Origin: a virus
Virus record (IMG/VR): IMGVR_UViG_3300032047_000141
Span: 1-22,943 of that record
Length of the DNA stretch: 22,943 nt
Direction: 5' to 3' (one strand)
The position numbers were made by a program, and so were the translations under genes. This document shows positions 2,134-2,275 of this stretch, piece by piece. Below the pieces are notes generated by a model. That model saw only the letters and a list, made by a program, of their open reading frames with translations, ran no database searches and was not told the DNA's origin. The stretch's first letter is position 1; the number at the start of each line of letters is the position of its first letter.

Positions 2134-2275
2134 CAATCAATAGGGGTGCGGTGCAGATGGCGTGGCACACTAGTCTCCAAAACTAGGGATGATTTACCTC
2201 ATCCAGCAGGTTCGAATCCTGTCACCCTTGCCAATTTCAACAATCAAAGGATTATATTATGCTTCAAACAATCAA
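2132..2275 (+). repeat. Three AACAATCAA repeats around the tRNA gene
   Basis: AACAATCAA occurs exactly at 2132-2140, 2239-2247 and 2267-2275. The first ends one base before the tRNA begins and the second starts 5 bases after its CCA end, so the tRNA is bracketed by a direct repeat; the third is inside the first codons of the next gene. Other exact copies lie at 1678, 1700 and 3571, all on the plus strand. I found no copy on the minus strand. The bracketing is compatible with an inserted cassette or with binding sites for a phage protein. Confidence 0.5.
2142..2233 (+). tRNA. tRNA with CCA (Trp) anticodon and a long, class-II-type variable arm
   Basis: The full cloverleaf can be drawn. Acceptor AGGGGTG (2142-2148) pairs with CACCCTT (2223-2229, one G-U pair), discriminator G at 2230, encoded CCA 2231-2233. 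D arm GTGC/GCAC (2151-2154/2165-2168) with GG in the loop. Anticodon arm CTAGT/ACTAG (2170-2174/2182-2186), loop CTCCAAA, anticodon CCA at 2177-2179. T arm GCAGG/CCTGT with loop TTCGAAT. Acceptor, G73 and anticodon loop match bacterial tRNA-Trp closely. The 19-base variable region (2187-2205), however, folds as a 6-bp stem GGATGA/TCATCC, as in Leu, Ser or Tyr tRNAs. Position 8 is C instead of the near-universal U, and the D arm looks like tRNA-Leu. Which amino acid it carries is uncertain. Confidence 0.88.

Follow-up and report, generated by a model that had tools for sequence, protein, structure and literature searches.

In bacteria, long variable arms are confined by textbooks to the tRNAs for leucine, serine, tyrosine and selenocysteine, and tRNA-Trp belongs to class I by rule. 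A phage gene that joins a tryptophan anticodon to a class-II body raises the question of where such a body came from and which amino acid the tRNA carries. The gene lies in a 22,943-base IMG/VR virus record, which was analysed over its whole length and is referred to here as the window; it derives from an uncultured phage whose host group is marine bacteria. The 1101-aa virion protein of this phage has distant relatives (26–27% identity) in Vibrio phages, and further matches were found in Alteromonas and Pelagibacter phages.

Anatomy of the window tRNA

A single tRNA gene was identified in the window using ARAGORN, at positions 2142–2233 of the plus strand, and was called as tRNA-Trp with the anticodon cca at position 36. 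The gene is complete, is 92 nt in length with its CCA end encoded, and aligns end to end with Rfam family RF00005 at 39 bits, the variable region appearing as a long insert. This analysis confirmed the preliminary description, in which a tRNA with the anticodon CCA, G73, C8 and a 19-nt variable region containing a 6-bp stem had been recognized at the same positions. The features of the gene are as follows.

2142..2233, plus strand: whole tRNA gene with anticodon CCA, class-II variable arm and encoded CCA end (ARAGORN; Rfam RF00005, 39 bits; covariance models)
2142..2148, plus strand: 5′ strand of the acceptor-stem, AGGGGTG (A1, G5), pairing with 2223–2229; N1-U72 in 43 of 45 long-arm relatives
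2149..2150, plus strand: C8 G9 in place of U8, common to phage tRNA-Tyr of the same body type
2151..2168, plus strand: D arm GTGC-AGATGGCGTG-GCAC, with a covarying 4-bp stem, Watson–Crick 13-22 and G21; D loop shared with C8 tRNA-Tyr
2170..2186, plus strand: anticodon arm CTAGT-CTCCAAA-ACTAG; U31-A39 in 46 of 47 members of a second class-II CCA group
2177..2179, plus strand: anticodon CCA, reading UGG (ARAGORN)
2187..2205, plus strand: variable region GGATGATTTACCTCATCCA, 19 nt, with a 6-bp stem GGATGA/TCATCC, loop TTTACC and A48; formed in the minimum-energy fold, with compensatory changes in relatives
2206..2222, plus strand: T arm GCAGG-TTCGAAT-CCTGT (Rfam RF00005 alignment)
2223..2229, plus strand: 3′ strand of the acceptor-stem, CACCCTT (U72) (Rfam RF00005 alignment)
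2230..2233, plus strand: G73 and encoded CCA end; G73 in 45 of 45 long-arm relatives versus A73 in 74 of 74 C8 tRNA-Tyr

The 7-bp acceptor-stem consists of A1-U72, G2·U71 and five Watson–Crick pairs, and the T stem has 5 bp. The predicted energy of the cloverleaf with its variable arm is −30.4 kcal/mol, and the minimum for the unmodified RNA, at −31.7 kcal/mol, lies 1.3 lower. This minimum contains no short variable region; the anticodon, variable and T arms are retained, and the re-pairing, which arises because GGTGC is present twice, is confined to D and acceptor bases. The motif AACAATCA occurs on the plus strand at window positions 1678, 1700, 2132, 2239, 2267 and 3571, and five of these six copies lie inside 1678–2275, on both sides of the tRNA gene.

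Relatives in other phages and the variable arm

Viral contigs were scanned with two patterns. The first, which fixed the anticodon loop and T arm only, required a Trp anticodon loop followed by a T arm at class-II distance and returned at least 119 stretches, mostly parsed as class-II CCA tRNAs; the second combined the D loop of the window gene with the Trp anticodon, fixed U31-A39 and G30-C40, and returned 105 stretches. Positions 1-72, 5-68 and 73 were left free by the patterns. After removal of duplicates, the two scans provided, among the matches listed, 45 distinct long-arm CCA tRNAs from diverse IMG/VR phage contigs that share the body of the window gene: C8-G9, the D loop AGNNGGNGWG, a Watson–Crick 13-22 pair, G21 and A48. 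A gene-sharing analysis of the 49 C8-group loci gave a main cluster of 28, four small ones (4, 2, 2 and 2) and 11 singletons; therefore, the C8 CCA tRNA is carried by several phage lineages. The window and L004 form one of the small clusters, L011, L131, L150 and L171 form another, and in the stretches of all six the CCA tRNA is the sole tRNA. Among six neighbours encoding the 302-aa protein that flanks the tRNA in the window (approximately 60% identity), a tRNA is found in L004 only, on the opposite side of the gene for that protein, and the tRNA gene is therefore patchy. In one phage locus, L142, a C8 CCA tRNA occurs alongside a C8 Tyr paralogue.

In a scan for Trp tRNAs of any arm length, long-arm genes accounted for 3 of 100 phage Trp tRNAs, or 1 of 81 under stricter fold criteria, so most phages do without the long-arm form; it is common in absolute number and a small minority of phage Trp tRNAs. 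A blastn search with the window gene and five relatives as queries, which is insensitive at approximately 90 nt, found no long-arm CCA tRNA in named phages, where the top hits were to ordinary tRNA-Ser genes or to the T arm only; none was found in plasmids. A scan of 84,980 bacterial species genomes identified only 17 class-II CCA tRNAs recognised by ARAGORN. Three of the 17, on bacterial MAG contigs (L209, L222 and L233), are Leu-type tRNAs (A73, Leu D arm) with the anticodon CCA, and these are possibly missense tRNAs or errors.

The variable arm is maintained as a helix. In 13 distinct arms of 15 nt or more, 52 of 52 outer pairs are formed, against a shuffle mean of 43.7, and 1 of 2000 shuffles was as good, in a test that ignores the relatedness of the sequences; the five distinct 19-nt arms alone make a weak test (99 of 2000 shuffles). 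Compensatory changes keep the stem across relatives, so the arm is not a product of chance. Members with G26 keep a Tyr-style arm (T44, stem, TGA48) and have A20b; in members with A26, which include the window gene, the stem abuts position 44 and is mostly followed by a single A48. In L127 and L168, two members that share genes with the main cluster, the same C8 body carries a variable region of just 5 nt (GATTA/TATTA). The arm therefore appears to be tolerated and dispensable in the C8 CCA tRNAs, as expected of a legacy from a tyrosine ancestor.

Long variable arms with stems were also observed on other normally class-I phage isotypes. Among the fetched loci, a sample biased to CCA-carrying contigs, they were present on 11 of 96 Cys, 7 of 61 His, 8 of 113 Asn and 8 of 122 Lys tRNAs. 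Examples are found in L074, L088, L129, L146 and L250 (Pseudomonas phage RVTF4) for Cys; L018, L029, L032 and L042 for His; L040, L055, L093, L142 and L156 for Asn; L010, L055, L065 and L087 for Lys; and L010, L030, L077 and L098 for Met. The tRNA-Ile(UAU) of L009, L012, L172 and L320 has a 24-nt variable region with an almost invariant shared sequence (ATCGTCTCCAGATTAGAGAGCGTC), apparently more conserved than other variable arms.

Probable origin of the body and the apparent switch of identity

The D arm had been likened in the preliminary description to that of tRNA-Leu, a parallel that does not hold. Each of the 55 class-II Leu tRNAs from phages that were compared has U8, A73, A14-A15 and a non-Watson–Crick 13-22 pair; the window gene has C8, G73, A14-G15 and C13-G22, and its core follows the pattern of phage tRNA-Tyr. 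Phage tRNA-Tyr includes a subtype whose body carries C8 G9, AGTTGGAG(A/T)G, G21 and A48. To avoid circularity, this body was searched for with the anticodon left open, and the recognised tRNAs comprised 72 distinct Tyr(GTA), 27 CCA (two of them short-armed) and 2 Ser, the count of 27 including genes already obtained through the CCA scans. When only newly fetched loci were considered, 87 occurrences of the raw body pattern preceded GTA and 4 preceded GCT, the next commonest triplet; most of the CCA cases were already among the earlier matches. Two tRNA-Ser(GCU) genes on a C8 Tyr-type body, in L261 and L268, represent a further apparent switch of identity. A C8-type tRNA-Tyr at L120:7274-7430 (minus strand) is interrupted in the anticodon loop by approximately 71 nt, which matched no Rfam intron family; the whole scores 75.2 bits with the Tyr model described below.

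Covariance models were built for C8 Tyr, Ser and class-I Trp from 30 phage tRNAs each. The C8-Tyr model gave the window gene 55.0 bits, against 46.5 for the phage Ser model and 42.2 for the class-I Trp model, and the Tyr model was best for 12 of the 13 C8 CCA tRNAs searched, L011 being a near tie (Ser 59.4, Tyr 58.1). By simple body similarity, 37 of 49 C8-group CCA tRNAs are nearest to Tyr; the window gene is an outlier in this comparison, nearest to a class-II Asn tRNA, and so is a diverged member. It has C8 G9, the 4-bp D stem, G21, A48 and the long arm of the C8 tRNA-Tyr body, and departs from it in the D loop (AGATGGCGTG instead of AGTTGGAGWG) and in the variable stem that abuts position 44. 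In hosts the C8 Tyr body is rare: 714 sampled genomes gave four matches, of which two are tRNA-Tyr-like (one in the genome of L220 and one L256), and the body therefore looks phage-associated in these groups.

The positions that specify the amino acid differ between the two sets of genes sharing this body. Comparison of 74 C8 Tyr tRNAs (anticodon GUA) with 45 long-arm C8 CCA genes, among the matches listed, showed G1-C72 in 69 and A73 in all 74 of the former, versus U72 in 43 (G1-U72 in 38, A1-U72 in 5), G73 in all 45 and a nearly fixed G5-C68 (44 of 45) in the latter. In bacteria, Trp identity depends on G73, the anticodon, G3-C70 and G4-C69, with minor contributions from A1-U72 and G5-C68, and Tyr identity on A73 and G1-C72 (PMC9976931). 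The window gene carries all listed Trp determinants, including the CCA anticodon in the loop CTCCAAA, except G2-C71, a strong Trp pair in Bacillus subtilis (PMC9976931), in place of which it has G2·U71; its relatives vary at 2-71 and 3-70. It lacks the Tyr set, with CCA, G73 and A1-U72 where Tyr has GUA, A73 and G1-C72, and its 19-nt variable region with a 6-bp stem is unlike the 4–5 nt of class I. G73 and the long arm are also features of tRNA-Ser, but the window gene has A1-U72 and G2·U71 where most bacterial tRNA-Ser keep G1-C72 and G2-C71.

A second group consists of 47 other class-II CCA tRNAs, among the matches listed, which have U8 and a body nearest to tRNA-Ser in 34 of 47. The Ser model was best for the four members tested (L009, L031, L071 and L122; 64–73 bits). 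This group also has U72 (44 of 47), G73 (46 of 47) and U31-A39 (46 of 47, with a pattern that left 31-39 free), and C2-G71 in 25 of 47, where Ser has G2-C71. Given these Ser-like bodies, at least two switches of a class-II tRNA to Trp identity seem to have taken place.

Charging, function and precedents

The window gene is probably a phage tRNA-Tyr remolded to tRNA-Trp (alloacceptor remolding), charged by the host TrpRS and reading UGG, with the long arm as a legacy. The direction from Tyr to Trp is suggested by the distribution and shared features of the genes, tRNAs being too short for a resolved tree. The starting point would be the C8 tRNA-Tyr body common in phages, which would have gained the Trp identity set (CCA anticodon, G73, U72, G5-C68 and U31-A39) and lost the Tyr set (GUA, A73 and G1-C72). 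Transcription and processing would most likely proceed as for any phage tRNA, after which the host TrpRS would most likely charge the remolded tRNA with tryptophan, and UGG would be decoded in infection by an extra or depletion-proof tRNA-Trp. The long arm of the Tyr ancestor would be one that TrpRS probably neither requires nor is blocked by, kept as a helix, variable in length and lost in some relatives. TrpRS and TyrRS are sister enzymes. The suggestion in the preliminary description of a chimeric, evolved phage tRNA with possible Trp charging is supported, unlike its Leu parallel: a Tyr-type body appears joined to a Trp acceptor end and anticodon arm in many phages.

Since UGG has no synonym, a lone tRNA-Trp cannot benefit the phage by matching codon bias; a natural guess is that it would raise or protect the Trp-tRNA pool, and there is precedent in phage tRNA-Tyr and tRNA-Lys (PMC11555353). 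A related proposal, compatible with the remolding explanation, is that the gene serves anti-defence by replacing host tRNA-Trp destroyed by a defence nuclease. Its altered core or long arm would leave it poorly cleaved by that nuclease, or would let it act as a decoy; the decoy or sensor role raised in the preliminary description is speculative. Nucleases that attack tRNAs are indeed countered by phage tRNAs, with tRNA-Tyr acting against retron-Eco7 and tRNA-Lys against PrrC (PMC11555353), and a sole tRNA for a one-codon amino acid in the window and five relatives would fit such a role; yet no tRNA-Trp nuclease is known to be tied to these hosts, two relatives are without the arm and most phage tRNA-Trp genes are class I, which leaves the proposal rather unlikely. 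It is unlikely, too, that phages repeatedly converted class-II bodies to tRNA-Trp as a shield, with selection for a long arm and an altered core (C8, A48 and the stem abutting position 44) that host defence nucleases targeting tRNA-Trp cannot cut.

Charging by the host SerRS, through which UGG would be misread as serine or the tRNA would receive serine and tryptophan promiscuously, appears quite unlikely. SerRS uses the long arm and G73 (PMC7609411), the class-II nev-tRNAs of nematodes are leucylated in vitro (PMC4300185), and the second CCA group has Ser-like bodies. However, phage Ser tRNAs have G1-C72 (62 of 68) and G2-C71 (65 of 68) where C8 CCA tRNAs have U72, and the C2-G71 of 25 of the 47 Ser-bodied CCA tRNAs is a pair reported to oppose SerRS in Escherichia coli tRNA-Leu. 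The serine charging considered in the preliminary description is thus disfavoured by the acceptor-stem and by the complete loss of the arm in two C8 members, and serine at UGG would harm the phage's own proteins.

Phages often integrate at tRNA genes, and the gene might be left over from a host tRNA gene, or be a copy of one at an attachment site, and play no part in translation. This is very improbable: the gene is complete and structurally conserved, with compensatory changes and an encoded CCA end; no integrase match was found among the 10 window proteins, a subset of the ORFs, scanned with PHROGs; and the scarcity of class-II CCA genes in the species genomes means that the window tRNA was not copied from an ordinary host tRNA. 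A role as a near-cognate suppressor of UGA, for which the Hirsh suppressor, a Trp-CCA tRNA with an altered D arm that reportedly can read UGA, would be the precedent, is hardly credible, since TGA, at 6 of the 19 stops counted, is not avoided, and TGG occurs at an ordinary 12.8 per 1000 codons.

No published description of a long-arm tRNA-Trp in phages was found in the open-access literature. Remolding, or alloacceptor recruitment, is already known as a process in which a tRNA takes a new anticodon and identity and its body betrays its origin (PMC4783518, PMC3923123); those cases come from animal mitochondria and eukaryotic nuclear genes, whereas here phages appear to convert a class-II Tyr body, and separately a Ser-like one, to Trp, which is apparently undescribed in phages within the literature searched. 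The nematode nev-tRNA-Gly and nev-tRNA-Ile likewise place the anticodon of a class-I amino acid on a class-II body (PMC4300185), but in the phage genes the discriminator and the first pair of the acceptor-stem have also changed to those of the Trp set. The selC* tRNA-Cys and allo-tRNAs combine a long variable arm with a non-standard anticodon (PMC7609411), but have Sec-like lengthened acceptor-stems, in contrast to the 7-bp acceptor-stem and 5-bp T stem of the window gene. A role beyond codon bias is likewise seen in the phage tRNA-Tyr and tRNA-Lys by which tRNA-targeting defences are evaded; tRNA-Trp is not mentioned in that report (PMC11555353), and the anti-defence role here is putative.

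These genes suggest that phages have evolved tRNA identity across the boundary between classes, and for Trp by itself on at least two occasions. They offer a natural chassis for testing what TrpRS, TyrRS and SerRS really read, are possible starting points for orthogonal tRNAs, and are a caution against using arm length to infer class or isotype in annotation pipelines.
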